A DNA stretch of 51,668 bases, taken from contig JAUWCL010000025.1 in NCBI GenBank assembly GCA_030609325.1, forward strand, positions 1 through 51,668, given 5' to 3'. The translations under genes and the position numbers were made by a program. Of the stretch, positions 3,290-51,436 are shown piece by piece. The notes beneath the pieces were generated by a model. It was given only the letters and a program-made list of their open reading frames with translations. It was not told the origin of the DNA and did no database searches. This stretch comes from Candidatus Krumholzibacteriota bacterium. GTDB lineage: Bacteria; Krumholzibacteriota; Krumholzibacteriia; Krumholzibacteriales; Krumholzibacteriaceae. Position 1 is the stretch's first letter. Each line of letters opens with the position of its first letter.

Positions 3290-4747
3290 ATGAGCGGTCT
3301 CTTCGGCGTTGTCTCCAGTAAAAAATGCAGCGAGTATCTTCTCTACGGAACCGACTACCACTCGCACCTCGGCACCCAGTTCGGCGGCGCCGCCGTGCTC
3401 GGCGATGATTTCGAGAGGCAGATCCATAATATCAGCAACACTCAGTTCAAGTCAAAATTTGACGTGGACCTGCTCGCCATGAAGGGCGGGATGGGAATCG
3501 GCGTCATCAGCGCCTTCGAAGAGCAGCCGATCTACATCAACTCGAAATTCGGCCCGTTCTGCATAGTGACCGACGGATTCCTCGATAACGCTCACGAGCT
3601 CACCGCGAAGCTTCTCGAAGAGGGAGTGACTTTCAGCGAGGTCGGCGACGGCGTCGTCAACTTCACCGAACTGGTCGCGAAGCTGATCACGAAAGGTGAC
3701 TCGATCATCGATGGTATAGAGAAGATGTTCGACCGGATCGACGGCTCGATCTGCCTGCTCATCCTCCACGGCGACGGGATATATGCCGCTCGCGACAGGC
3801 TCGGCTACTTCTCGCTTGCCGTCGGCCAGAACGGGGACGGCTGGGCGGTCAGCACAGAGACGACGGCATTTCCCAACCTCGATTTCGACCTGAAGAAGTT
3901 CCTCGGTCCCGGCGAGGTCGTGCTGCTCAGCCCGGGCGGGCTCCAGCAGAAGAGGCAACGCAACGACGCCCAGCAGATCTGCGCCTTCCTCTGGATCTAC
4001 ACCGGATTTCCCGCCTCGTTCTATGAGGGGATCAACGTGGAGACGGTCCGCGAGAAGTCGGGGAGGGCGCTGGCCCGCAGGGACCGCGATATCGAGGTAG
4101 ACGTAGTCGCGGGCATTCCCGACTCGGGAACCTCCCACGCGATCGGGTACGCGATGGAATCGGGCAAACCGTACAGGCGGCCGCTTGTCAAGTACACGCC
4201 GGGATACGGCCGCAGCTACATCCCGCCGTCGCAGGACGTGCGAGACCACGTGGCGAAGATGAAGCTCGTGCCGAACAGGGCGATCATCGACGGCAACAGG
4301 ATCGTAATATGCGAGGATTCGATCGTACGCGGGACGCAGCTGAAGAACTTCACCGTCAAGAAACTGATGGCGGGGGGCGCGAAGGAAATCCACGTCCGCC
4401 CGGCCTGCCCGCCGCTGATGTTCCCCTGCCGTTTCAACCTATCGACCCGCGATATCAACGAGCTCGCCGCACGCAGGGCGATAAGGGCCCTCGAAGGCAG
4501 TGACATCGAGGACATCTCGGAGTATCTAGATCCGTCCACGGAGAAATACGCGAAGATGATCGAATGGATACGCAGGGATCTCGAGATCACGTCCCTGCGC
4601 TACCAGACGATCGAGGACATGGTCGATGCCATCGGGCTCCCGAAGGAGAAGCTCTGTCTCTACTGCTGGAATGGCCAGTACCCGAAGCCCGGCTCGAGCT
4701 GTGCGGGGTGCGGCAGGGAAGAGGTCGGCGCTGAAACTGGCGGGTAA
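3290..4747 (+). CDS. Amidophosphoribosyltransferase (PurF) paralogue with Ser in place of the catalytic Cys
   Basis: PurF-family enzyme; classical PurF transfers ammonia from glutamine to PRPP in the first step of purine synthesis. The protein starts MSGLFGVVS, so the residue exposed after Met removal is Ser2 (codon AGC) rather than the Cys nucleophile of the Ntn glutaminase domain. The rest is well kept: the PRPP-binding motif IVICEDSIVRGT (about 338-349) and cysteines at 231, 380, 456 and 459, which line up with the four [4Fe-4S] ligands of B. subtilis PurF. An extra CAGC pair follows at the C-terminus. The start has GGAGG upstream. Paralogues with Ser or Gly at position 2 exist, to my recollection, in Bacteroidetes. 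It may use free ammonia or serve another role, so I give no purF symbol. Confidence 0.85.
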   Translation: MSGLFGVVSSKKCSEYLLYGTDYHSHLGTQFGGAAVLGDDFERQIHNISNTQFKSKFDVDLLAMKGGMGIGVISAFEEQPIYINSKFGPFCIVTDGFLDNAHELTAKLLEEGVTFSEVGDGVVNFTELVAKLITKGDSIIDGIEKMFDRIDGSICLLILHGDGIYAARDRLGYFSLAVGQNGDGWAVSTETTAFPNLDFDLKKFLGPGEVVLLSPGGLQQKRQRNDAQQICAFLWIYTGFPASFYEGINVETVREKSGRALARRDRDIEVDVVAGIPDSGTSHAIGYAMESGKPYRRPLVKYTPGYGRSYIPPSQDVRDHVAKMKLVPNRAIIDGNRIVICEDSIVRGTQLKNFTVKKLMAGGAKEIHVRPACPPLMFPCRFNLSTRDINELAARRAIRALEGSDIEDISEYLDPSTEKYAKMIEWIRRDLEITSLRYQTIEDMVDAIGLPKEKLCLYCWNGQYPKPGSSCAGCGREEVGAETGG

Positions 4748-7737: not shown

Positions 7738-9357
7738 TTAATTTCCCGGAGTGAGAGAGGGACCGGAGTTCTTGAGGCATCTCTCTGCATCGGGGTGGCC
7801 GGGATCGATCTTAAGAGCTTCTTTCCAGGTTTTTATCGCCCTCGCCGTATCGCCGGAGTTCGCGTAGACCTTTCCCAGCCTCACAATCTGCGACGCCTTT
7901 CCGAACGACGTATCCCTTGCCACCGTCAGGCCGGTGGCATAGAAGATCAGGAGGAGAGTTATCGCCATGATCAAGAGGTCGAAGAGCTTTCTGTCCCGGA
8001 TCATTTTCAGCAGAATCGATATGGCCGCTCCGGCGAGGGGGATCAGGAAAACGACCACTGGTATGCGGTATCGCGCGAGGACGTAGAATACGATCGCCGC
8101 GGTAAAATAAGTCAGCACCCCGCCGTACATCAGGATAAGCCTGTCCCAACGTTTTCTCGTGAGGAATATCCCGAGCAGCGCGAAGGAGAGGACGAACCAG
8201 TAGCCGGGCAGCGGCAGGGCGATGATGCCGCCGAACTTTCTGTGGAAGTACATGCTCTCGACGCTTGCTCGCTCGTACCTGTTGAAGAAGTAGAGGAACT
8301 TCCGGAATGTCAGAGCCGCCGAGGCGCCGGGTTCGGCGGCAATATGCCTCAGGCCCTCCCTCGTCCAGAAACGCGAGACTTCTCCCGGCGAGAGTTTCCG
8401 CTTCCCGGCCGCCTCGGCGAGCAGGTACATCCTCTCCCGCTGGACCTCAGGCGTCCCGCCCAGGGACATGCCCCGGTAGAACGGTACCGAGTAGAAGCCG
8501 TTCGCCTTCGGATTGTGCCCGATGTAGAAGTTTATCCCGCCGCCTGTGGTGAGCGGCACGAACGTTCCCGTCATCCTCGCGTTTCGTATGGTGAGAGGTG
8601 TTATGGCGAACACCAGCCCGGCGACGAGGGCGGCGTATCTGAGAAAATTCACGACGACGCCTCTGCGGGCGTCAGCCGTTTCCAACCTGTCTGCTGCACC
8701 TGCCCTGTCGATTGCTGCATCACCGCTCAATTTCTTCGTCCTGAACCAGATGTAGAGAAGCGCGAAGGGCAGCAGGAGAAGGGCTACCGGCTTGGCCATC
8801 ACGGACAGTCCGAGTACGAATCCTGCCGCCATCAGCCTGGCCGGCCCGGCCTGCCCCGTGTCGGATACCATTAGCAGCAAGAAAAGGGCGTTGAGAAAGA
8901 GTACGAGGGTGGCCGGCAGGAGAACTCCCTCGTAGAATATCGCGGGAAGGTAGAGCGCCGTGAGAAGGCCGGCGGCTATCCCCGCGGTCGAAGATCTGAA
9001 CAGCCTTCTCGTGAACACGGTGATGAAGGCGCAGGTGAATATTCCGAGCAGGGCCTGCACGCTCCGCACGGCAGTCAGAGAGGGCCCGAAGACGCGGTAT
9101 ATCAGGGAGAGGACCCATGGGTAGAGCGGCGCCTGCATGAGCTTCGTCGCGGGGAGCTCGCCTCCCCAGACGAGGGCCTTGGCCCACCTGTCGTATACAA
9201 TCGAGTCGAGGACGAGGTTGTTCGCGAGGGGATTGAGGCGGGCCGTGAATATTACGTGAAGGAGGCGGACCGCCGCGGCGACGAGTATGACCATCGCGGC
9301 GAGAAAGGTCTCGCTGATATATCTTGTGCGGCCGCTATTGTTCTCCATTCGCTTCAT
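7738..9357 (-). CDS. GT39/ArnT-type membrane glycosyltransferase with C-terminal TPR
   Basis: 539-residue polytopic membrane protein with about ten hydrophobic segments. The N-terminal extracytoplasmic loop contains a Tyr-Asp-Arg-Trp motif (DSIVYDRWAKAL), matching the acidic loop of polyprenyl-phosphate-sugar dependent transferases of the PMT/ArnT (GT39/GT83) kind. The last ~45 residues form one TPR-like repeat (SGDTARAIKTWKEALKIDPGHPDAE). It probably transfers a sugar from a lipid carrier to protein or lipid at the periplasmic face; the acceptor is unknown. It lies 33 bases downstream of the nucleoside hydrolase-FmdE gene and may share its transcript. No clear ribosome-binding site supports one start; ATG 9348 is an alternative. 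Confidence 0.75.
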   Translation of the reverse strand: MKRMENNSGRTRYISETFLAAMVILVAAAVRLLHVIFTARLNPLANNLVLDSIVYDRWAKALVWGGELPATKLMQAPLYPWVLSLIYRVFGPSLTAVRSVQALLGIFTCAFITVFTRRLFRSSTAGIAAGLLTALYLPAIFYEGVLLPATLVLFLNALFLLLMVSDTGQAGPARLMAAGFVLGLSVMAKPVALLLLPFALLYIWFRTKKLSGDAAIDRAGAADRLETADARRGVVVNFLRYAALVAGLVFAITPLTIRNARMTGTFVPLTTGGGINFYIGHNPKANGFYSVPFYRGMSLGGTPEVQRERMYLLAEAAGKRKLSPGEVSRFWTREGLRHIAAEPGASAALTFRKFLYFFNRYERASVESMYFHRKFGGIIALPLPGYWFVLSFALLGIFLTRKRWDRLILMYGGVLTYFTAAIVFYVLARYRIPVVVFLIPLAGAAISILLKMIRDRKLFDLLIMAITLLLIFYATGLTVARDTSFGKASQIVRLGKVYANSGDTARAIKTWKEALKIDPGHPDAERCLKNSGPSLTPGN

Positions 9358-9390
9358 CAGCGGGAATGATAATGCAACGGCGCGCGGCGG

Positions 9391-10791
9391 TCAACGATCC
9401 ACGCTGATCTCGAAGAGCTCGCTCTCGTCCATCTCCCAGACCTTCATGCCGGCCTGCTCGACGCCTTCGCTGTCGACGGATCTCTTCACCATCGCGGGGA
9501 TGCCCGGAAGGAGCTTGATGGTCACGGTGGCGCCGCCTGCCGTCATGAATACGGCGAACGGCGGCCCGTCGAACGGCTCGACGGAGATGTTTCTCTTTCC
9601 GAGGGTGCATCCGCTGCCCAGCTGCACGCCGTCGATGAGGCAGGAGGGCGGCGGTTCGAGCACGCTGTGGACCTCGGCGCTGATGCCGAAGTGACCCGAT
9701 GAGCCCGTCTCGTCCAGAGCGAGCCTGCCCATCCTGTAGCCGAGGACGACAAACGGTCCGAGATGTCCATGGAAGTTCCTGATAAGGGCAAGGATATCTC
9801 CTGTGGCCGGCATGTGGTGAGCGTGGCCTTCGTGCTCCATGCCCGGCGCTTCCCAGACGCCGTGAAGGTATCTCTCGAGGTCGGCGCCCTTTTTCAGCCT
9901 GACGATCCTGATCCTGCCGCTGTCCGATCCTTTCAGGGAAAATCCGCCGTCGGCGCGTGCGACCGGCTCGAAAGTCTCACCGCCGACCTCGAAGAGATCG
10001 GGGGCGGCGACAGCCGCCGCGGCGATCTCGTCAAAGAGGAAAGCGTGCGCTCCGGTCCCTCCGCCTACGGTCGCCGTGATCCATCTTGCCGCCTGCGTGT
10101 TTCCCTCGACGTCGCGCAGCAGTCTGCCCGGGTCACCCTCCCAGGATACATCGACAAGGAAGATCGTGCCCGCCGTCTCCATGACGAGCCTGGCCGCTTC
10201 GGGATCGTAGCCGAAATTCCAGCCATCGACCGCTTTCCCATCGAGCGAAACGGGCATCCAGACCTCCACGTCCCGCAGGGCGCCGGGGTCGCGCCGCTCG
10301 AGCCCGGCCAGATTGGTCAGCGGCCCCAGGGCCAGCCACACGTCATCCGGCAGCCGATCCGATCGGGAGGCGGCGTCGGCGAGCGGGCTGTGAGAGAGCG
10401 CGCGTGGGGGAGGGAAAGGATGGCCTCCGAGCCCCTCGGCGTGCATTCTCCACGGCGGAGGCTCTTTCGAGCTTCCCGGTAATCCTCTGTAGACAGTTAT
10501 AGGGGCGGCTCCCGCAGACTCGATCAGGCCGATTACGTTATCTGCCGCCTTTACAGCCGAGGCGGAGCCTTCGACCGTGCAGAAGGCGGCTATCACGATG
10601 CTACGGGAGCCGAGCAGTGCGAATATTGCCCTGGCGTCGTCGAGCCCCATGTCGGTATCGACGATCAGTACGCGGCCCTCTCCTGTCGGCGGGCTGTCGC
10701 CCGTTGCACGGCAGTGGGCCGGCAGGGGATGGGCGAGCAGGGCCGATATCACGAGCGCAGCGACGGCAGCGACAGATTTTACTCTTTTCAT
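9391..10791 (-). CDS. Exported nucleoside hydrolase fused to an FmdE-like domain
   Basis: 466 aa with two domains. ATG at 10791 follows GGAGGATAAG and begins a signal peptide (MKRVKSVAAVAALVISALLA). Residues ~40-330 resemble the inosine/uridine-preferring nucleoside hydrolases: the Asp-rich VDTDMGLDDA motif (44-53, family form DTDxGxDDA) and a late FDEIAAAAVAAPDLF segment matching the second metal-site helix. Residues ~335-466 resemble the FmdE domain: NFHGHLGPF, a GYRMGRLAL helix, and CLIDGVQLGSGCTLGKRN with its conserved Cys. FmdE is known from formylmethanofuran dehydrogenase operons, where its role is unclear. The fusion in an exported protein is unusual. It diverges from a TonB receptor. 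Confidence 0.75.
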   Translation of the reverse strand: MKRVKSVAAVAALVISALLAHPLPAHCRATGDSPPTGEGRVLIVDTDMGLDDARAIFALLGSRSIVIAAFCTVEGSASAVKAADNVIGLIESAGAAPITVYRGLPGSSKEPPPWRMHAEGLGGHPFPPPRALSHSPLADAASRSDRLPDDVWLALGPLTNLAGLERRDPGALRDVEVWMPVSLDGKAVDGWNFGYDPEAARLVMETAGTIFLVDVSWEGDPGRLLRDVEGNTQAARWITATVGGGTGAHAFLFDEIAAAAVAAPDLFEVGGETFEPVARADGGFSLKGSDSGRIRIVRLKKGADLERYLHGVWEAPGMEHEGHAHHMPATGDILALIRNFHGHLGPFVVLGYRMGRLALDETGSSGHFGISAEVHSVLEPPPSCLIDGVQLGSGCTLGKRNISVEPFDGPPFAVFMTAGGATVTIKLLPGIPAMVKRSVDSEGVEQAGMKVWEMDESELFEISVDR

Positions 10792-10884
10792 CTTATCCTC
10801 CGTGTATCCCCGCATGTCGATGACGAAAGTCCTCCGGATCGGGGTTCTTCGATTCGTTATGTCGGATCCTCCTGCACCTAATAA

Positions 10885-10950
10885 CACAAAATATGGAAAC
10901 GTGCCACTATTTTACTTGACTATAATAGCACGAATATAATTATATTAACA
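10885..10950. promoter_or_regulatory. AT-rich divergent promoter region
   Basis: The gap between the nucleoside hydrolase-FmdE gene and the TonB receptor contains a sharply AT-rich island. On the plus strand TTGACT (10916-10921) is followed by overlapping TATAAT-like hexamers at 10935-10944, so the receptor promoter is probably here, though the spacing of the best pair is ambiguous (13 or 17 bases). I see no B12-box or Fur-box that would name the ligand. Confidence 0.4.
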
Positions 10951-10991
10951 CGATTTGTTGTCTGCTGTATTTACCGAACAGGTGGTGGAAA

Positions 10992-12839
10992 ATGCCCCGG
11001 AAGATATTCTCTGCTTTCGCTCTGTTAATGATCCTTGTTCCCGGCGGCGGTCTTTGCGGCGATTCGAAGGGTGAAAAACCGGACACTCTCGTCCAGTACA
11101 GGATGGAGGAGATCATCGTCACTGCGACCAGGATCAAATCTCCCCTCGAGAACCTTGCTCTCTCGGTATCCTTTATCGGACCGAAGGAGATCGATAACTC
11201 GCTCAAGAACTCTTCGACCGACCTGGCCGGTGTGCTCCCGGGTGTTTTTATCATGCGGACGGGGGATTTCGGGAGAAGCGATGTGAGTATCCGCGGGCTC
11301 GGCTCGAGGGGGAGACAGTCGCTTGTTCTCATGGAGGGCCGGCCGGAGAGGATGGCGCTCTTCGACTGCACGGTGACTCATTCTTTCCCCCTGCACGACG
11401 TCGAAAAGGTGGAAGTGGTCAAGGGGGCTTCCTCCACCCTGTACGGATCGGGCGCGATGGGGGGGGTGATGAACGTCATCCCCCGCAGCGTGAGAAATTC
11501 TCTCGAGATCGATCTGCGGGCGGCGGGCGGGACTTACGAGACCTACCTTTCGAGCGGCCGTCTTGCTGGCAGGAAGGGAGGCCTGGCCGGCGTGGTCAGC
11601 GCCGATTACAGGGAGTCGGCGGGCCACGTGGACAATTCCGCTTACAGGGGCACCGATATTATCGCCAGGGGAGAGGCGCTGATTCCCGGATCACTGCTGC
11701 TGTCCGCATGGGCGAAGTATTTCGACGGGTACAAGGAAGAGCCGCTCAGGGCCACCGACGATCCATCGCCGGCCTCCAATACGTGGAACGACTACAAGCG
11801 CGGCAGCTTCGACCTGGGCCTGAAAGGCGAGGGCGATGCGTATCATTACAGCGCAAGATATTACCGCAACTTCGGGGAGCACAGGTTCTCCGACGGATGG
11901 TATTCGAAAGACGCCACCGACGGAATCATCCTGTACGGGAGATCCGAGCCTGTAAGGGGACTGGAGATCTCGGGCGGCGGCGATTACAGGTTCCAGCGGG
12001 GCGAACTGCCGGACGAGCCGGATGCGGAATGGGACAAATGGGAGGCCGGAGCCTATCTCCAGGCAGAGTATTTCTGCAGGGAGCGGCTCGCCCTGACGGC
12101 GGGAGCCAGATACAACCATGACGGCGTTGCCGGAGAGGAAGTGAGCCCGTCTTTCGGTATGGTCTGGCGGCCGCTCGAGGGGACGAGCTTCAGGGCTGTG
12201 GCCGCTCACGGTTTCAGGTCGCCTCAGATCAACGAGCTGTACATGTTCCCCCCGTCGAACGAGAACCTCGAGGCGGAGAGGATGTGGAACTACGAGGCGG
12301 GACTGCGCCAGAGGATCCCGGGAGGCCTCGAGATAGATCTCTCGGTCTACAGGATGGATGGAGAGAACATGATCGAGCTCGCCGACAATCCCTCTCCGCC
12401 CCCGATGATGAGATTCACCAACACGGGGGATTTCGTTTTCGACGGGATGGAGGTATCACTCGATGGAAGCTGGAAAGGCGGCCTCGGCGCGAACGTCTCG
12501 TGGTCGAAAATCGATCCGGGGCGCTGGACGCAGGGACGGCCTGGCACGAAGGTCGATTTTGGCCTCTCTCAGCATGCGAGACGCTACACGGTAAGGTTGT
12601 CCGGAAGATACATCGACGATTATTACGCCGGAAACGATTCAACCGATCCGATACCTTCCTATACGGTTGTCGATATCTACGGGGAAGCGATAGTCGCTGG
12701 AGGCGTGTCGGTCTTCGCCGGCCTCAACAACATCGGCGACGAGGAGTATTTCATCTATACCGATCTGCCGGGGGGGCAGGCAGGCCTGTACCTGATGCCG
12801 GAGAGAACGGTAACAGTCGGGTTGAAGTACGGATACTGA
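10992..12839 (+). CDS. TonB-dependent outer membrane receptor
   Basis: 615-residue outer-membrane transporter. It has a signal peptide (MPRKIFSAFALLMILVPGGG), a TonB box (EEIIVTATR, about 39-47), a plug domain with VSIRGLGSRGRQSLVLMEG and VEKVEVVKGASSTLYGSGAMGGVMNV, and a beta-barrel ending in the aromatic residue of VGLKYGY. The size and plug sequence place it in the cobalamin/siderophore (BtuB/CirA-like) part of the family, but the ligand is not evident. No transporter or riboswitch lies beside it. The start is preceded by GGTGG. It converges with the small zinc-ribbon gene, stop to stop within 12 bases. Confidence 0.9.
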   Translation: MPRKIFSAFALLMILVPGGGLCGDSKGEKPDTLVQYRMEEIIVTATRIKSPLENLALSVSFIGPKEIDNSLKNSSTDLAGVLPGVFIMRTGDFGRSDVSIRGLGSRGRQSLVLMEGRPERMALFDCTVTHSFPLHDVEKVEVVKGASSTLYGSGAMGGVMNVIPRSVRNSLEIDLRAAGGTYETYLSSGRLAGRKGGLAGVVSADYRESAGHVDNSAYRGTDIIARGEALIPGSLLLSAWAKYFDGYKEEPLRATDDPSPASNTWNDYKRGSFDLGLKGEGDAYHYSARYYRNFGEHRFSDGWYSKDATDGIILYGRSEPVRGLEISGGGDYRFQRGELPDEPDAEWDKWEAGAYLQAEYFCRERLALTAGARYNHDGVAGEEVSPSFGMVWRPLEGTSFRAVAAHGFRSPQINELYMFPPSNENLEAERMWNYEAGLRQRIPGGLEIDLSVYRMDGENMIELADNPSPPPMMRFTNTGDFVFDGMEVSLDGSWKGGLGANVSWSKIDPGRWTQGRPGTKVDFGLSQHARRYTVRLSGRYIDDYYAGNDSTDPIPSYTVVDIYGEAIVAGGVSVFAGLNNIGDEEYFIYTDLPGGQAGLYLMPERTVTVGLKYGY

Positions 12840-12850
12840 TCGGGCGCGGG

Positions 12851-13240
12851 TCAATCGGTCCTGCCGTCGAAATCATCCTCGATGATCTCCTCGATCTTTC
12901 GAGTGTCCTCTTGTGTCCTGATCAGCTCGAGCACGTGCTCGTACTCACCCCGCACGTCGTCGCCGAATCCCTCAACCATGGCGAGAGTGCGTTTCCCGCT
13001 GTTGAGGCGGATCGTCCTCATCCGCTCGAGGATCGATTCGTACGGCTTGTCGGAGGTGTAACCGGACAGTGTGTATCTCGACACGAACTGCCCGCATTTC
13101 GCGCACTCGATATAGATCCTGATCCTCTTGCCCCTGCAGAAATAAACATTGTTCCTCGTCTCTACCGCTCCGCACTTCGGGCAGTGCTCGAGCCTCGCGC
13201 TCTCGGTGCCTTCATTCTCGTTTATATGCATGACAGACAT
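12851..13240 (-). CDS. Small zinc-ribbon protein, function unknown
   Basis: 129 aa, cytoplasmic. Two CxxC knuckles (HCPKCGAVE and ECAKCGQF) separated by about 25 residues form a probable treble-clef or zinc-ribbon fold; the C-terminal half is a charged helix (IRTQEDTRKIEEIIEDDFDG). I do not recognise a named family. It lies 25 bases upstream of the DASS transporter on the same strand but reads away from the TonB receptor. ATG 13240 or ATG 13231 could be used; an AAAGGA run sits next to both. Probably a nucleic-acid-binding or metal-handling accessory protein. Confidence 0.6.
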   Translation of the reverse strand: MSVMHINENEGTESARLEHCPKCGAVETRNNVYFCRGKRIRIYIECAKCGQFVSRYTLSGYTSDKPYESILERMRTIRLNSGKRTLAMVEGFGDDVRGEYEHVLELIRTQEDTRKIEEIIEDDFDGRTD

Positions 13241-43794: not shown

Positions 43795-45333
43795 CTAACC
43801 GGGAAGCCGGATCGGCGCGTCCGGGCCGACGGGCAGCCCGATCAGCATCCATACGGCGAGCAGGATCGTCCATACGATTCCGATGATGACCGTGTACGGG
43901 AGCATCGTGGCCGTGATCGTGCCTATCCCGTATTTCTCGTCGTATTTCTGCGCGAACGCGACGATCAGGGCGAAGTAGCTCATCATAGGAGTGATGATGT
44001 TCGTTATCGAGTCCCCGATCCTGAACGCCGCCTGCGTTATGCCCGGGTGATATCCGACGAGCATGAACATAGGAACGAAGACCGGCGCCATGATCGCCCA
44101 TTTGGCCGACGCGCTTCCCATGAAGAGGTTGATGAACGCCGACAGTATCAGGAAGGAGACGAGCAGCATGACCCCGGTGAATCCGATGCTGCCGAGGAAC
44201 CCGGCGCCCTTGATCGCAACCAGCACCCCGATGTTGCTGTATTTGAAGTAGTAGACGAACTGGCCGGCGAAGAATACAAGGACGATGTAGCCGGACAGGC
44301 CTTTCATCGAGCCCGTCATACTTTTGATGATATCCTTGTCGCTGCGGATGGAACCGACGGCGATCCCGTAGGCGATACCCGGTATCAGGAAGAAGATCAA
44401 GATCGCGGTGATGAGCCCGTTCATAAAGGGCGATCGCAGGAGCGATCCGGTCTCGGGGTCCCTGAGGACGGCCCCCTCGGGGAGGGTGAGCAGGGCGAGG
44501 ATTATCAGGAATGCGGCCGTCGCGCCGGCCGCCCAGGCGAGGCCCTTTCGCTCGTTGGGCGATACCTTCTCGAAGTCCTCGCTCTCCCCCTCGTATTTTC
44601 CCAGCCTCGGCTCGACGATCCTCTCGGTGACGAACGTGCCGAAGATGACGATCAGGAAGGCCGAGGCAAACATGAAGTAGTAGTTTACCGCGGGGGATAT
44701 ATGCATATCGGCGTCGATGATCTGGGCGGCCGATTCGGTCAGCCCGGCGAGGATCGGATCGATCGATCCGATGAGGAAATTCGCCCCGAAGCCTCCCGAC
44801 ACACCGAGGAAAGCGGCCGCCAGCCCTGCTATCGGATGCCGCTTGACGGCGGCGAATATCATCGCTCCGAGGGGGATCAGCACGACGTATCCTGCGCTCG
44901 AAGCGAGGTGCGAGAGGATTCCTGCGGCGATCACCGCGGCAGTGATCAGCCGCGGCGGCGCGCTCGTGACGATGTGGCGCAGCAGCGCCGAGATGAGGCC
45001 CGAACCTTCCGCAACGCCTATGCCTATCATCGCCACCAGTACGATGCCGAGGGGAGGGAAAAACACGAAATTGTCGGTCACCTTCGTCCACATGAACCGG
45101 AATCCCTCGTGGGAGAGCATGTTGATCGCCTCGATCGTCGCGCCTGTCCCCGGATGGACGGCGGTGATACCGGCCCTCGAGATCAGCGCCGAGGCGACGG
45201 CGGTGCTGACGGCGAATATCGCGAAGAGTGTCGCGGGGTGGGGGAGCTTGTTGCCCACCCGCTCGATGCGATCGAGGAATCTCATCAGGGCGGATCTCTT
45301 TACCGTTGCGGTATTGTCGTTGCCTTCGGTCAT
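43795..45333 (-). CDS. AbgT family transporter (p-aminobenzoyl-glutamate/sulfonamide type)
   Basis: 512 aa, about 11 helices and two re-entrant loops. AbgT-family features include RIERVGNKLPHPATLF at the N-terminus, FVFFPPLGIVLVAMIGIGVAEGSG, GFGANFLIGSIDPILAGLTE and GSASAKWAIMAPVFVPMFM. The family imports p-aminobenzoyl-glutamate or exports sulfonamides by cation antiport, so it links to folate salvage or drug efflux. The ATG follows GAGAGGACTGACG. It is 54 bases downstream of nikR on the same strand and may be regulated with it. Confidence 0.9.
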   Translation of the reverse strand: MTEGNDNTATVKRSALMRFLDRIERVGNKLPHPATLFAIFAVSTAVASALISRAGITAVHPGTGATIEAINMLSHEGFRFMWTKVTDNFVFFPPLGIVLVAMIGIGVAEGSGLISALLRHIVTSAPPRLITAAVIAAGILSHLASSAGYVVLIPLGAMIFAAVKRHPIAGLAAAFLGVSGGFGANFLIGSIDPILAGLTESAAQIIDADMHISPAVNYYFMFASAFLIVIFGTFVTERIVEPRLGKYEGESEDFEKVSPNERKGLAWAAGATAAFLIILALLTLPEGAVLRDPETGSLLRSPFMNGLITAILIFFLIPGIAYGIAVGSIRSDKDIIKSMTGSMKGLSGYIVLVFFAGQFVYYFKYSNIGVLVAIKGAGFLGSIGFTGVMLLVSFLILSAFINLFMGSASAKWAIMAPVFVPMFMLVGYHPGITQAAFRIGDSITNIITPMMSYFALIVAFAQKYDEKYGIGTITATMLPYTVIIGIVWTILLAVWMLIGLPVGPDAPIRLPG

Positions 45334-45387
45334 CGTCAGTCCTCTCTGTCAGTCGGGCCGGGTGCTTTTGATCCGGTGGATAAGATG

Positions 45388-45801
45388 TCAGAGCGCCACG
45401 CCCGCGGTGGCCTTGACCAGCGTCCCGTATTTGATGCCCTTCATCGAGATCATCTCGTCGGCGAAATCTCTCACTTCTCCGGCCTTTCCGCGAATCACCT
45501 TGACCTCGAGACAGTTGTCGTGGTCGAGATGGATGTGCAGAGTCGACAGGATGCCGCCCTCCCAGTAATGTTCCTTCTTCAGGAGACGGGAGGAGAGCTC
45601 GCGGCTGTGATGGTCGAACACGATGACGAGCACCCCGATGATCTCTCCCGCGGCGTCGGCCCATTCGTCGTCGACGATCGTTTTTCTTACCAGGTCGCGT
45701 ATAGCCTCGGACCTGTTGGGATAACCCTTCTCCCGGACCATCGCGTCGAGCTTTTCGAGGAGCCCGTCCTCCATCGACACTCCGAACCTTGTCGTACTCA
45801 T
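45388..45801 (-). CDS. nikR: Nickel-responsive regulator NikR
   Basis: 137 aa. N-terminal ribbon-helix-helix DNA-binding segment (TTRFGVSMEDGLLEKLDAMV) and a C-terminal ACT-type metal domain. The high-affinity nickel ligands are present: His78, His89, His91 and Cys97, matching E. coli His76, His87, His89 and Cys95. It represses nickel uptake when nickel is plentiful. No nickel transporter lies nearby; instead it heads the strand before AbgT. The intergenic region to the divergent glycosylase contains a short CCGGCGCCGG palindrome but no obvious GTATGA-type NikR operator. Confidence 0.9.
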   Translation of the reverse strand: MSTTRFGVSMEDGLLEKLDAMVREKGYPNRSEAIRDLVRKTIVDDEWADAAGEIIGVLVIVFDHHSRELSSRLLKKEHYWEGGILSTLHIHLDHDNCLEVKVIRGKAGEVRDFADEMISMKGIKYGTLVKATAGVAL

Positions 45802-46682: not shown

Positions 46683-46773
46683 GGTCTTTTCTCCGCTCAT
46701 CGATATGGTCCGGCAGCGGACGATAACTCGCAGTCGGAGTGCCGGAGCAGGTCGGCGGCAACAAGAATTATTA

Positions 46774-46802
46774 TTGACTTGATTGCCGTTTATTCGTAAC
46801 TT
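46774..46802 (+). promoter_or_regulatory. Promoter of the PerR/rubrerythrin island
   Basis: TTGACT (46774-46779), a 17-base spacer and TAACTT (46797-46802), about 50 bases before the PerR-like gene, within an AT-rich stretch (GAATTATTATTGAC) that may hold a PerR-type operator. Autoregulation by PerR is plausible but not shown. Confidence 0.5.
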
Positions 46803-46849: not shown

Positions 46850-47266
46850 ATGCATTCGTTCGAGACGACTATCGGAAGACTGAGAAGCGAAGGATTCAAG
46901 CTGACGCCGCAGCGTCTGTCGGTGATCCGTTACCTGATCGGCAACAAGACTCACCCGACCGCCGCCGTTATCTACGGGGACCTGAAAAAGAAATACCCGA
47001 GTCTTTCCTTCTCGACGGTCTACAACACGCTGAACATGCTCGAGAAGATCGACGAGGTACAGTCGCTCCACCTCTTCGACGATTTCCTCAACTACGATCC
47101 GGATACCGGCTCTCATTACCACTTCGTCTGCAGGAGCTGCGACAGTATCATTGACATTTTCCCGCGTAACGGCGAGAATGTATCCCTGCCGGAAGGCGAT
47201 ATTTCCGGAAACAGGATCGAATCGGCACAGGTCGTTTTCAAAGGTACGTGCAAGAACTGCCTTTAG
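46850..47266 (+). CDS. Fur family regulator, PerR-like
   Basis: 138 aa. Winged-helix DNA-binding domain (GFKLTPQRLSVIRYLI, FSTVYNTLNMLEKI) and a dimerisation domain with HYHFVCRSC and a second pair GTCKNC, giving two CxxC motifs that bind structural zinc. The Asp/His set of the sensing site (YDPDTGSHYHFVC) fits PerR or Fur. It starts a run of peroxide/oxygen-protection genes, which favours PerR. A typical role is iron-dependent repression relieved by peroxide oxidation of a His. No perR symbol is given because PerR and Fur cannot be separated from this alone. Confidence 0.85.
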   Translation: MHSFETTIGRLRSEGFKLTPQRLSVIRYLIGNKTHPTAAVIYGDLKKKYPSLSFSTVYNTLNMLEKIDEVQSLHLFDDFLNYDPDTGSHYHFVCRSCDSIIDIFPRNGENVSLPEGDISGNRIESAQVVFKGTCKNCL

Positions 47267-47278
47267 GGGAGAACCTGC

Positions 47279-47920
47279 TTGATAGCCCAGGTCTGGAAGT
47301 GTTCGGTGTGCGGACACGAGACAATAGGGCTTTTCCCGCCCGAAACGTGTCCTGAGTGCGGCGAGCCGAGGTCGGTCTATGCGTTGGACGATGCGCTGAA
47401 GATACCGGCCGATGAGGTCGACGGCGTCATCGACGCGTGCTGGAAGGTCACCTACGGGCTCTACGTGATATCCTCTGCAGACGGCGAACGGATAAACGGG
47501 CAGATCGGCAACACGCTCTTCCAGGTGACGTCCACTCCGCCGAGACTGGCGATTGCGATCAACCGGGAGAACTACACGCACGAACTGATCGAGAAGAGCG
47601 GCGTGTTCGCCGCCTCGATCCTCGGCAGGGACGATCACAGGTTCGTCCGGCGTTTCGGCTACAGGTCGGGCAGGGATTTCGACAAGTTCAAGGGGGTCGA
47701 GATCCGCACGGCGAGAAACGGCTGCCCCGTCCTGGCAGGAGCGGTAGGATACTTCGAGTGCGAGGTTATCCCGGAGATGACGGTCAGCGCGGGGACTCAT
47801 ACGATATTCGTTGCCGACCTGACCGGCGGCGGCATCCTCGCCGGCGGCGATCCCATGACCTACGCGCACTATCACGAGGTCAGGTCCGGCGAGATGAAGA
47901 AGGCGAGATCGAAAGACTGA
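47279..47920 (+). CDS. Rubredoxin-like domain fused to flavin reductase (Hrb-like)
   Basis: 213 aa. The N-terminus has a rubrerythrin-type zinc/iron ribbon (KCSVCGHE, CPECGEP; Cys at about 8, 11, 24 and 27). Residues ~50-200 are an FMN-binding split barrel of the flavin reductase type (GLYVISSADGERINGQIGN, FAASILGRDD, HYHEVRSG). This matches high-molecular-weight rubredoxin (Hrb), which feeds electrons to flavodiiron proteins or rubrerythrin to reduce oxygen or peroxide. Start is TTG 47279 with GGGGAG upstream. Twelve bases after the PerR-like gene. Cytoplasmic. Confidence 0.85.
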   Translation: MIAQVWKCSVCGHETIGLFPPETCPECGEPRSVYALDDALKIPADEVDGVIDACWKVTYGLYVISSADGERINGQIGNTLFQVTSTPPRLAIAINRENYTHELIEKSGVFAASILGRDDHRFVRRFGYRSGRDFDKFKGVEIRTARNGCPVLAGAVGYFECEVIPEMTVSAGTHTIFVADLTGGGILAGGDPMTYAHYHEVRSGEMKKARSKD

Positions 47921-47945: not shown

Positions 47946-48941
47946 GTGAGCAACGACGAACGCGAACAGATCCTGAAGGTGCTTTCCGGAGCGATCATCC
48001 GCGAGACCAACGCATTCAACTTCTACTACGAGGGCGGCGAGAATCCGAACATACCTGCCGGTGTGCGAGGGCTTCTCACGAGGCTGGCCGAGGAGGAGCG
48101 CGTTCACAGGCAGCTCCTCATCAACGAATACAAGGCGATCGAGAAGGGCTGGAACGGCGAGCCGGGCGAGGAAGGGGAGCCGGAGCTTTCCTACACCATG
48201 CCCGACGATCCCACCTTCACTCCGCTCGAACTGAGCGATCGCCTCGAGGCGCTCGCACTCACCATGCCGAGCAGGCTCGTGGGCGGCGACAACATATTCT
48301 CGAGGGTCATCCGTGACCATAGCGGGAACGACAGGGGGACGCTGCTCCTTCTATATGACACCATGGGCCACAGCATGAAGACGACCGAGATCAACGGTTT
48401 CGCGGCCAAGGCGGTCGGCGAGTATATCGATTTCGTCTCTCTCTCGGGGATGGAGATCGAGATGCTCGGACCGAAGAAGATAGTGACCCTGCTCAACGAG
48501 AAGATCGCGGAGAAGTACGAGGGGGAGGGGATCTTCCTCACCGTGTTCTGCGTCCTGTTCGACAGCAGGGAAGGGACGCTGACCTATACATGCGCGGGGC
48601 ACGAGCCCCCGTTTCTGGTCGACGCTTCGGGTAAGGCCTCGTCGCTCCTGCAGACCCAGCTGATAGCGGGTATAGATCCCGTCTTCCGCTACAGGGAGCA
48701 TTCGATGCCGTTCGGTCCGGAGGATATCTTCTGCGTCTTTTCCGACGGGATCGTCGAGGCGGAGAATGCGGAGGAGGAGATCTACGGGCGAGGAGGCATA
48801 TCGAAGATCCTCGAGGAGAACAGGGACGGAACACCCGGCGACATTGTCGCGGGCGTTCTGGCGGGCCTGAAGGACCACCTCGGCGGGAAGCCGCTGAAGG
48901 ACGAGGTGTCGATCATCCTGGTGAAATTGAAGGGAGAGTGA
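47946..48941 (+). CDS. Half-ferritin domain fused to SpoIIE/PP2C-type phosphatase
   Basis: 331 aa. Residues ~10-65 form a two-helix ferritin/rubrerythrin-like hairpin: ligand-type Glu20 in RETNAFNFYY and the ExxH of EEERVHR (Glu51, His54). Two such halves could make a diiron site in a dimer. Residues ~100-330 are a SpoIIE/RsbU-type PP2C phosphatase: VGGDNIF (Asp115), LYDTMGHS (Asp138), TCAGHEPP and FSDGIVEAEN, with GGRG-like YGRGG. Such phosphatases act on anti-sigma-factor antagonists. The fusion links a putative iron or oxygen sensor to protein dephosphorylation. GTG start at 47946. In a PerR-headed operon. Confidence 0.8.
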   Translation: MSNDEREQILKVLSGAIIRETNAFNFYYEGGENPNIPAGVRGLLTRLAEEERVHRQLLINEYKAIEKGWNGEPGEEGEPELSYTMPDDPTFTPLELSDRLEALALTMPSRLVGGDNIFSRVIRDHSGNDRGTLLLLYDTMGHSMKTTEINGFAAKAVGEYIDFVSLSGMEIEMLGPKKIVTLLNEKIAEKYEGEGIFLTVFCVLFDSREGTLTYTCAGHEPPFLVDASGKASSLLQTQLIAGIDPVFRYREHSMPFGPEDIFCVFSDGIVEAENAEEEIYGRGGISKILEENRDGTPGDIVAGVLAGLKDHLGGKPLKDEVSIILVKLKGE

Positions 48942-48944
48942 GCC

Positions 48945-49079
48945 TTGTCGCACCATACTCTGAAAGACGCCATCACGGGGGCGATATACGCCGAGACGAG
49001 GGCCAGCGACTTCTACCTCGCCGAGGCGGAGAAGGCCGAAGACCCCGAGCTGAAGAAGATGTTCGAAAGTCTTGCGTAG
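48945..49079 (+). CDS. Half-ferritin ORF ending at an in-frame TAG
   Basis: 44 aa from TTG 48945 (GGGAG 8 bases upstream). The protein MSHHTLKDAI...FESLA is the first ferritin-like helix and part of the second (ligand-type Glu17). A TAG at 49077 comes two codons before Glu47 of the conserved ExxH (QEKGH) and the frame then continues without a stop into the rubredoxin. So either a nonsense mutation split a rubrerythrin-like protein, or the TAG is read through. The related half-ferritin of the preceding gene continues past this point, which shows the missing part is functionally important. Confidence 0.6.
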   Translation: MSHHTLKDAITGAIYAETRASDFYLAEAEKAEDPELKKMFESLA

Positions 49080-49115
49080 CAGGAAAAGGGGCATTCCGAC
49101 CGAAAGGAGCCAGGT

Positions 49116-49277
49116 ATGAAAAAGTACGTATGCGACGTCTGCGGGTATATCTATGATCCCGAAATCGGCGATCCTGACAGCGGTATCGAGCCCGGGATGG
49201 CCTTCGAGGATCTTCCCGACGACTGGGTATGCCCTGACTGCGGCGCCGGCAAGGGCGAGTTCTCGGCCGTCGAGTAG
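49116..49277 (+). CDS. Rubredoxin
   Basis: 53 aa, classic rubredoxin with the two Fe-binding knuckles CDVCGYIYD and CPDCGAG, and the [17 protein letters not shown] signature. It transfers electrons, here probably to rubrerythrin-like proteins or the Hrb-like flavoprotein. ATG 49116 has AAAGGAG 6 bases upstream, so it is translated on its own, but it also lies in frame with the half-ferritin ORF before it, interrupted only by TAG (49077-49079). Cytoplasmic. Confidence 0.9.
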
Positions 49278-49410: not shown

Positions 49411-49914
49411 ATGGGAATTTCCTTTAACGCCGACGAAATCTTCGAGATGGGAATGGACATCGAGATGAGCGGTGAAGCCTACTACCGCAAGGCTGCCGAG
49501 CTGACCGAGGACCCCGAGATCAGGAAAATCTTCGAGGATCTGATGGTCGCCGAGAAGCAGCATTACGAGACGTTCAAAAAACTCAGGGAGAACCTTCCCG
49601 CGAAGGACACGACTCCACTTGTCTCCGATCCCGAGGACCAGGAATATCTCTATCTCGACGCGCTGGTCAAATCGAGGCTTTTCAACAACGTCCGCGAAGC
49701 GGAGGAAGTCGTTTCGAAGACATCCGGCCCGATCGAGGCGCTCCAGGGCGCCCTGGCCTTCGAGAAGGACACGATCCTCTTCTTCACCGAGATGAAGGGG
49801 AGGACGAGGGAAGATCTCGGCAAGAAAGAGATCGACCGTCTCATCGCGGAGGAGAGGGAGCATATCATCTGGATCTCCGGCATGATCAGGAAGATCAGGG
49901 AGAGGGAAGCCTGA
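49411..49914 (+). CDS. Rubrerythrin/ferritin-like diiron protein
   Basis: 167 aa, a full four-helix ferritin-like bundle. Helix 1-2 ligands: Glu18 in EMSGEAYY and the ExxH of AEKQH (Glu48, His51); the second half repeats the pattern with ALAFEKDTILFF and AEEREHI. It lacks a C-terminal rubredoxin domain, which is encoded separately just upstream. A peroxide-reducing or iron-handling role is typical. AAGGA lies 6 bases before the ATG. It is the last gene of the oxidative-stress run before two strong hairpins. Confidence 0.85.
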   Translation: MGISFNADEIFEMGMDIEMSGEAYYRKAAELTEDPEIRKIFEDLMVAEKQHYETFKKLRENLPAKDTTPLVSDPEDQEYLYLDALVKSRLFNNVREAEEVVSKTSGPIEALQGALAFEKDTILFFTEMKGRTREDLGKKEIDRLIAEEREHIIWISGMIRKIREREA

Positions 49915-50110: not shown

Positions 50111-51436
50111 ATGGGCAAGCCGAAACCGGGTAAGAGCGATAAAGATCTCAAACGGCCTTCCGCCGTCGATCCGGCAAGTCGGCCGCTGGAGTGGAAGATA
50201 CGCGCCTTCGACGCGGCGGCCCGCATGGCCGGCGCACTGGAGATGTCCCGCGATCACCGCGAATCGATCAGGATCCTGCTCGACGTCCTCACCGAAAGCC
50301 TCGGGATCGGATGCCAAGCTGTCTATCTCGACGAGGCGGGGACCGGCGACCTGAGACTTCTGCGCTGCTGCGGAGCGGAACCGGGAACGCTTCCCGAATC
50401 GATAGGCACCGGTTCGGCATTCGTGGAATGGCTCGGTCGAAGCGGGTCACCGAAGATAATAGAAAGCTTTTTCCATACATCGGGCGAACTTACCGAAAGC
50501 GAGTTGTACTTGCAGGACGCCTTCGTCCGCGCCGGGACCGGCTCGGCATGCGCGCTGAAGTTCGGTAGCGAGGTCATGGGGATCTACATCTTCGGATCGG
50601 GATCGGGAGAGGAATGCCGGATAGAGGAGATGCATGCCGCGGTTGGTCTGATGACCGGCATAGCCGCGGCCGCTGTCGCGAGCCAGCTCATATCGGTGGA
50701 GGCCGGCCAGGGTGCCGAGGCCCGTGAGAGAGCCCGCGCGATCGAGTTCCGGGCCGTCCGCAGCGCTGTCCTCGAGAAAACAGCCGCCGATCTCGAGACC
50801 TCCCTGGGGGTCCTGAAGAGCGGCCTCTGGTCGATAGATCCCGATCCGGACAACGGCTCGGTGATGATCGATATGGCGCGGGACGCCGCGGTCCGTCTCG
50901 GCGCGAAAGTCGGGGAACTGATATCCCTGAGCGGCATCGAACCGGCCGGGTCGGATCTCGAGCTCGAAGAGGTCGACATGGCCGATATCGTCGAGGACAT
51001 CACGAGAGAGATGATCGCCGATTTCGATCGGAAGGAACTGGTCGTGGCCGTCGAGGACCGGACAGACGGAAGAATGCTGCGCGCCGATTCCGGGAAGCTC
51101 GCCTATGTCGTACGCAGCGTCATAGATCATGTCATGCAGTCAACCGACAGGGGCGGCACCGTGGATATTGCCTGGTCGGCCGTGAACGAGGGACCTGACG
51201 GAGACAACGGCCCCTGGTTCGTGCTGCGCGTGAGCGGCGACGGCAGGCCCGGAGGGAACGACGCCATAGAGGCTATCCTCGACAGTCTCGCCGCGGAGCA
51301 TGGAGAGGCGGCGGGGCCTCCAGTCGACTCGGGACTGACCCTCTCGGAATACATACTGGAATCCCACGGCGGCCGGCTGGTCCGGGGCGGGGACGATGCC
51401 GGCGGCATCTCGGTCTGGCTCCCCCTGGGGTACTAG
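50111..51436 (+). CDS. GAF domain protein with degenerate histidine kinase core
   Basis: 441 aa. Residues ~30-185 form a GAF domain (ILLDVLTESLGIGCQAVYL, MGIYIFGSGSG). Then a helical segment takes the place of a DHp domain, but no phospho-acceptor His is visible (FRAVRSAVLEKTAADL), and the C-terminal HATPase-like region has degenerate boxes (VIDHVMQS for the N box, VSGDGRPGG for G1; LTLSEYILESHGGRL is preserved). So it is probably a pseudo-kinase sensor or adaptor. It follows the rubrerythrin-like gene and lies behind a terminator, so it has its own promoter. A role in redox or stress sensing is inferred from context. Confidence 0.7.
   Translation: MGKPKPGKSDKDLKRPSAVDPASRPLEWKIRAFDAAARMAGALEMSRDHRESIRILLDVLTESLGIGCQAVYLDEAGTGDLRLLRCCGAEPGTLPESIGTGSAFVEWLGRSGSPKIIESFFHTSGELTESELYLQDAFVRAGTGSACALKFGSEVMGIYIFGSGSGEECRIEEMHAAVGLMTGIAAAAVASQLISVEAGQGAEARERARAIEFRAVRSAVLEKTAADLETSLGVLKSGLWSIDPDPDNGSVMIDMARDAAVRLGAKVGELISLSGIEPAGSDLELEEVDMADIVEDITREMIADFDRKELVVAVEDRTDGRMLRADSGKLAYVVRSVIDHVMQSTDRGGTVDIAWSAVNEGPDGDNGPWFVLRVSGDGRPGGNDAIEAILDSLAAEHGEAAGPPVDSGLTLSEYILESHGGRLVRGGDDAGGISVWLPLGY

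Follow-up and report, generated by a model that had tools for sequence, protein, structure and literature searches.

Within a window of 51,668 nucleotides, the whole stretch of Krumholzibacteriota DNA that was analysed, we found a gene that joins a two-helix ferritin-like hairpin to a SpoIIE/PPM phosphatase domain. Judged from its sequence, the product looks like a soluble sensor-phosphatase in which half a ferritin site replaces the usual sensor. The gene and its parts are as follows.

47946..48941, plus strand: ferritin hairpin-SpoIIE/PPM phosphatase fusion, GTG start, open reading frame of 331 aa
47952..48149, plus strand: two-helix ferritin-like hairpin, residues 3-68 (30/30 invariance, EncFtn PDB profile matches)
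48003-48005, 48024-48026, 48096-48098 and 48105-48107, plus strand: predicted hairpin ligand codons E20, Y27, E51 and H54, respectively
48150..48242, plus strand: linker, residues 69-99, non-helical in the model and poorly conserved
48243..48932, plus strand: SpoIIE/PPM phosphatase domain, about residues 100-329 (Pfam and PDB matches)

In Pfam searches, the SpoIIE profile (PF07228) matched residues 129-328 of the fusion with 108.8 bits, and the Rubrerythrin profile matched residues 11-78 with 23.1 bits, barely over its cut-off of 22.8 bits. The latter match covers profile positions 1-69 of 137, which equals one hairpin. Rubrerythrins are defined by a single-chain four-helix diiron domain together with a rubredoxin domain, and the fusion, with one hairpin and no rubredoxin domain of its own, falls outside this definition; it differs in the same way from the rubrerythrin and two-hairpin ferritins of its own operon, each half of which is homologous to the fusion hairpin. 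Instead, the hairpin belongs with the EncFtn-type half-ferritins, which have two helices with Glu, Tyr and Glu-x-x-His. When a hairpin-only profile was compared with the PDB, it matched Pyrococcus furiosus EncFtn (5n5e), the EncFtn-encapsulin particle 2e0z, Myxococcus EncB/EncC, sulerythrin and 2fzf, and the same profile also recognised both halves of the two-hairpin ferritins encoded nearby. The phosphatase domain matched RssB, SiaA, SpoIIE and Rv1364c in the PDB, and its D138, D267 and D319 align with D628, D746 and D795 of SpoIIE, so that both the domain match and the metal-binding aspartates of a SpoIIE-type PPM phosphatase are present. The earlier note, made from the sequence alone, had described a two-helix ferritin-like segment with E20, E51 and H54 in front of a PP2C/SpoIIE domain with intact Asp motifs, and would have counted the lack of a ferritin-like HMM match in the N-terminal 70 residues as a refutation. 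The residues were found as stated, and with ferritin-like matches from both Pfam and PDB profiles the description passed this test.

An AlphaFold2 monomer, based on the family alignment, gave a mean pLDDT of 90.2, with modelled helices at residues 3-31 and 38-68, a low-confidence non-helical linker in which the pLDDT drops to 53 at residues 71-80, and then a PPM fold. The hairpin modelled alone reached a pLDDT of 93.9. Foldseek with the hairpin alone placed EncFtn (5n5e) first with a TM score of 0.77 and E = 0.18, followed by other matches such as 7s8t and 7s5c; the right families were thus on top, but with E > 0.1 these matches are weak on their own. EncFtn and EncB/EncC are the closest matches in both profile and fold, and have in common with the fusion a half-site of two helices in which Glu, Tyr, Glu and His are spaced alike. 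In EncFtn, the irons are held by Glu32, Tyr39, Glu62 and His65 from two adjacent chains, and the dimer is stabilised by diiron binding, dimerisation being metal-dependent (PMC5012862). Residues E20, Y27, E51 and H54 of the fusion correspond to these four positions, and the E-Y, E-E and E-H spacings are 7, 31 and 3 compared to 7, 30 and 3 in EncFtn. Since the ligands match at near-identical spacing, a single fusion hairpin would therefore supply exactly half of a symmetric diiron site, with these residues as the predicted ligands. That two halves must pair, as had been proposed, is supported by the EncFtn site, which spans two chains. The fusion differs from EncFtn in being joined to a phosphatase, in lacking the C-terminal cargo tail, and in not keeping the second site formed by Glu31/Glu34, which are R19 and N22 in the window.

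Because one marginal Pfam Rubrerythrin match is weak, the retention of the hairpin in relatives was examined. A whole-protein search identified 15 further full-length members in close genomes (48-85% identity), and a profile search found the fusion in 16/80 genomes of the window's phylum, which belong to just two families within a single order. Scanning about 85,000 species genomes yielded 29 full-length members, or 30 counting the window protein, from Krumholzibacteriota, Latescibacterota, Aegiribacteria/Fermentibacteraceae, Zixibacteria, Eisenbacteria, B38 and unnamed bacteria (about six phyla), and among these 30 intact members the identity to the window protein is 25-85%. In their alignment, E20, Y27, E51 and H54 of the hairpin are unchanged in 30/30 members, as are E49, E50, R52 and E61, which lie outside the metal set, and D115, D138, D267 and D319 of the phosphatase. 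The scan used two patterns, and because LAEEERxHR includes E51 and H54, both residues were pre-selected in some loci; the 16 genomes of the window's own phylum came from the whole-protein and profile searches, which used no motif seed, and ligand conservation there agrees. Within the fusion, conservation is strongest in the hairpin, with a mean column entropy of 1.28 bits at residues 10-62, compared to 1.84 bits in the phosphatase and 2.32 bits, the highest value, at residues 63-105, which include the linker. When members were scanned singly against Pfam, SpoIIE was matched in 30/30 and Rubrerythrin in 26/30, with a best E value of 2e-9. Separately, sensor-like hairpins without a phosphatase domain were seen in ferritin-like proteins of Acetothermia and Methanoculleus draft genomes (L128 1011-1193 and L131 8001-8156).

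The fusion lies in an operon with the order PerR-type regulator, rubredoxin-like/flavin reductase, fusion phosphatase, decayed rubrerythrin, rubredoxin and ferritin-like protein, confirming the PerR operon that had been claimed. The other features of the operon are listed below.

46762..46802, plus strand: predicted operon promoter with overlapping Fur/PerR-like box (conserved upstream alignment)
46850..47266, plus strand: Fur-family regulator of PerR type (Pfam FUR, 79.6 bits)
47279..47920, plus strand: fusion of a rubredoxin-like domain (RUBY_RBDX, PF21349, 31.9 bits) and a flavin reductase (PF01613, 109.4 bits)
48945..49115, plus strand: decayed two-hairpin rubrerythrin-like gene (Pfam Rubrerythrin, 22.1 bits on a 44-aa remnant)
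49116..49277, plus strand: rubredoxin (PF00301, 84.3 bits; NCBIfam RubredRD over cut-off)
49411..49914, plus strand: ferritin-like protein of 167 aa (Pfam Rubrerythrin, 38.5 bits), conserved in relatives

The regulator has B. subtilis PerR (2fe3) as its best PDB match, and all five iron-site positions are conserved in the alignment; we take these residues to be H37, D85, H91, H93 and D104. Its score against the NCBIfam PerR(Clab) model was 107.6 bits, under the equivalog cut-off of 180. The box CAAGAATTATTATTG at 46762-46776 overlaps the -35 element TTGACT (46774-46779), which is followed by a 17-bp spacer and the -10 element TAACTT (46797-46802). This AT-rich palindromic box is kept in the upstream alignment of five relatives, with TAATAATAATTATTGACT in the best two. 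Its pattern has a single match in the window, where 0.01 were expected, and exactly one site without mismatch in the window's own genome, in which no additional operator copy for a regulon was better than 3 mismatches. The operon itself is probably repressed by the PerR-type regulator. The protein encoded next resembles high-molecular-weight rubredoxin and is likely an electron donor. The decayed rubrerythrin gene has lost sequence twice: one internal deletion has brought its two homologous hairpins together, ahead of an in-frame TAG, and the other lies directly before the rubredoxin gene; an intact homologue of about 160 aa is present in close relatives (L057/L058). Reading the TAG as a sense codon was rejected, given that relatives carry the full gene and the window copy has two deletions. 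Two genes outside the operon were also noted: a histidine-kinase-like protein directly 3' of it (50111-51436, plus strand; HATPase weak in Pfam, 14 bits), and, at 43795-45801 on the minus strand, what by its sequence looks like a NikR-type regulator, adjoining an AbgT-like transporter gene.

Rubredoxin, rubrerythrin/ferritin or flavin-reductase genes were found within about 3 kb of the fusion in 24/31 loci, and a rubredoxin gene lies downstream of it in 21/31. Seven of the 31 loci have no redox neighbours, one of which (L085) ends just after the gene. No COX1 was found in the window's own genome, which fits an anaerobe. As judged by eye, the L096 locus contains peroxiredoxin-like and hybrid cluster protein-like genes, and two divergent carriers without redox neighbours, L092 and L094, have a gene resembling PCMT, a protein-repair methyltransferase, directly upstream of the fusion (3980-4687 and 1946-2665, respectively).

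We consider it reasonably likely that the fusion is an iron- or redox-gated sensor-phosphatase, in which a symmetric diiron site between two identical subunits would detect peroxide, oxygen or iron and, through dimerisation, control the phosphatase. In PPM phosphatases of the SpoIIE class, the N-terminal domain dimerises the catalytic domains via switch helices, which leads to activation (PMC12143880, PMC8080068). A metal-paired ferritin hairpin would be a natural dimeriser of PPM domains, and for this reason we favour an iron- or redox-gated dimerisation switch. Two fusion hairpins would pair into an antiparallel four-helix bundle as in EncFtn, and would hold a symmetric diiron site made of two sets of E20, E51 and H54, with Y27. 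Peroxide or O2 would then change the iron or redox state of this site, which the rubredoxin system of the same operon would probably reset. The state of the site may alter how the two PPM domains come together, thereby moving the alpha1/alpha2 switch and turning Ser/Thr dephosphorylation on or off, with either the oxidised or the reduced form being the active one, and the phosphatase output would tune the oxidant response of the anaerobe alongside PerR. Iron binding, homodimer formation, redox sensing, phosphatase activity and the direction of the switch are what we infer for the fusion from these comparisons. One prediction counts against this mechanism: in RsbU-type phosphatases the signal passes through an alpha-helical coiled-coil linker (PMC12143880), whereas residues 69-99 of the fusion, in the AlphaFold2 monomer, lack the alpha-helical linker that in RsbU-type GSR phosphatases precedes the PPM domain, so that signal transmission may differ.

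The hairpin could be read in other ways. If Fe(II) occupancy rather than oxidation dimerised the hairpin and switched the phosphatase, the protein would act as an iron-supply sensor, like an Fe-dependent dimeriser. The metal-dependent dimerisation of EncFtn (PMC5012862), the ferritin-like neighbours and the Fur-family regulator agree with such a role; however, most neighbours have to do with peroxide and electron transfer (rubredoxin, flavin reductase, rubrerythrin) and the regulator looks more like PerR than like Fur, which makes it unlikely in our view. It is even less probable that the hairpin is a structural dimerisation or docking module, for instance one that docks on the adjacent rubrerythrins, with no metal being sensed. 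Mixed pairing would be possible, since the hairpin profile matches the neighbouring two-hairpin ferritins, and the invariance of E49, E50, R52 and E61 beyond the metal set points the same way, but neither the first-shell ligands nor the equivalent Tyr vary in any member, and structure alone would not need E20, E51 and H54 together. A random fusion, an assembly artefact or a decaying gene might be suspected from the decay of the next gene and from a Pfam Rubrerythrin score just 0.3 bits above the cut-off. Conservation has already refuted this, as there are 30 intact homologues from independent assemblies with invariant active residues, on which grounds a chance fusion was rejected and the chance of this reading is practically negligible.

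The output of the phosphatase is a separate matter from its input. STAS proteins are typical targets of SpoIIE-class phosphatases (PMC11418112), and among substrate classes phosphorylated STAS proteins would be the likeliest for the fusion; that the target is an anti-sigma antagonist, as the earlier note had it, is plausible. It is possible, and we put this forward tentatively, that the fusion dephosphorylates an anti-sigma antagonist of the STAS type and thereby sets an alternative sigma factor free. Such a pathway describes the output and the iron- or redox-gated switch the input, so both can hold together. The suggested look-up of STAS and RsbW genes gave a divided answer. The STAS domains of the window's own genome number about 10, in proteins from contigs C6, C19, C22, C33 and C36, and the genome also encodes several RsbW-like kinase domains, on C29, C33 and C36, as well as five SpoIIE domains including the fusion, from which it follows that partner switching exists there, and STAS was present in 15/17 fusion-carrier genomes searched; on the other hand, no STAS or HATPase_c_2 (RsbW) gene adjoins the fusion in any of the 31 loci. 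The use of sigma-B by C. difficile to drive reverse rubrerythrins (PMC7482061) speaks for such a pathway. Against a sigma pathway, two Zixibacteria carriers, both drafts with no completeness given, had no match to STAS or STAS_2, and no SigB/SigF-like sigma factor was recognised in the window's own genome, where just two sigma-70 proteins possess region 3 and both, in our reading, resemble RpoD or RpoS. That the Ser/Thr phosphatase under the metal- or redox-paired ferritin-like diiron switch has, in at least some carriers, a substrate beyond the classical STAS/sigma partner switching we hold to be rather doubtful; if so, bacterial PPM signalling in oxidant defence would gain a new kind of input and perhaps of output as well.

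Other proteins with these domains were encountered in the same genomes. Contig C33 of the window's own genome contains, at about 9167-13075 (L036, L044, L045, L048), a frame of 1423 aa with an RsbW-like kinase, a SpoIIE and three STAS domains, and frames carrying the same domains, about 1380-1493 aa long, recur across the family. Contig C29 (44692-45000, L038) encodes a protein of about 283 aa with a C-terminal HATPase_c_2 domain and an N-terminal part that is receiver-like by look, and many carrier genomes likewise have HATPase_c_2 proteins of similar length, about 280-300 aa.

The fusion has a catalytic domain with metal-binding aspartates and an N-terminal regulatory domain in common with SpoIIE/RsbU/RssB/SiaA-type PPM phosphatases, but its sensor is a ferritin-like hairpin and not a PAS, GAF, receiver, HAMP or RsbU N-domain, and, compared to RsbU-type enzymes, it has no predicted helical coiled coil in the linker. 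The reported N-terminal sensors of this phosphatase class are PAS, response-receiver, GAF and HAMP domains (PMC12143880), in line with the PAS, GAF and receiver domains that had been named as the known ones. A literature search covering few subscription papers returned nothing relevant on SpoIIE combined with rubrerythrin, a ferritin-like domain or hemerythrin. In the C. acetobutylicum PerR regulon and the C. difficile sigma-B system, PerR or phosphatase-initiated partner switching likewise stands over the rubrerythrin-type O2 and peroxide defence of anaerobes (PMC7482061), with RsbZ described in PMC12143880. Here, in contrast, a PerR-type gene and a phosphatase with a putative diiron site share one operon.

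As this combination is conserved across several uncultivated phyla beside peroxide-defence genes, the fusion looks like a switch of an undescribed kind that would sense iron or oxidants. Ferritin-like domains are familiar as enzymes and as stores of iron, and here, by sequence and conservation, one would serve as the sensor of a phosphatase. Because the site needs paired half-sites and dimerisation is what activates phosphatases of this class, signal and output would be coupled directly and in a way that is simple to test. If true, this would also show how uncultivated anaerobic phyla tie peroxide defence to protein phosphorylation.
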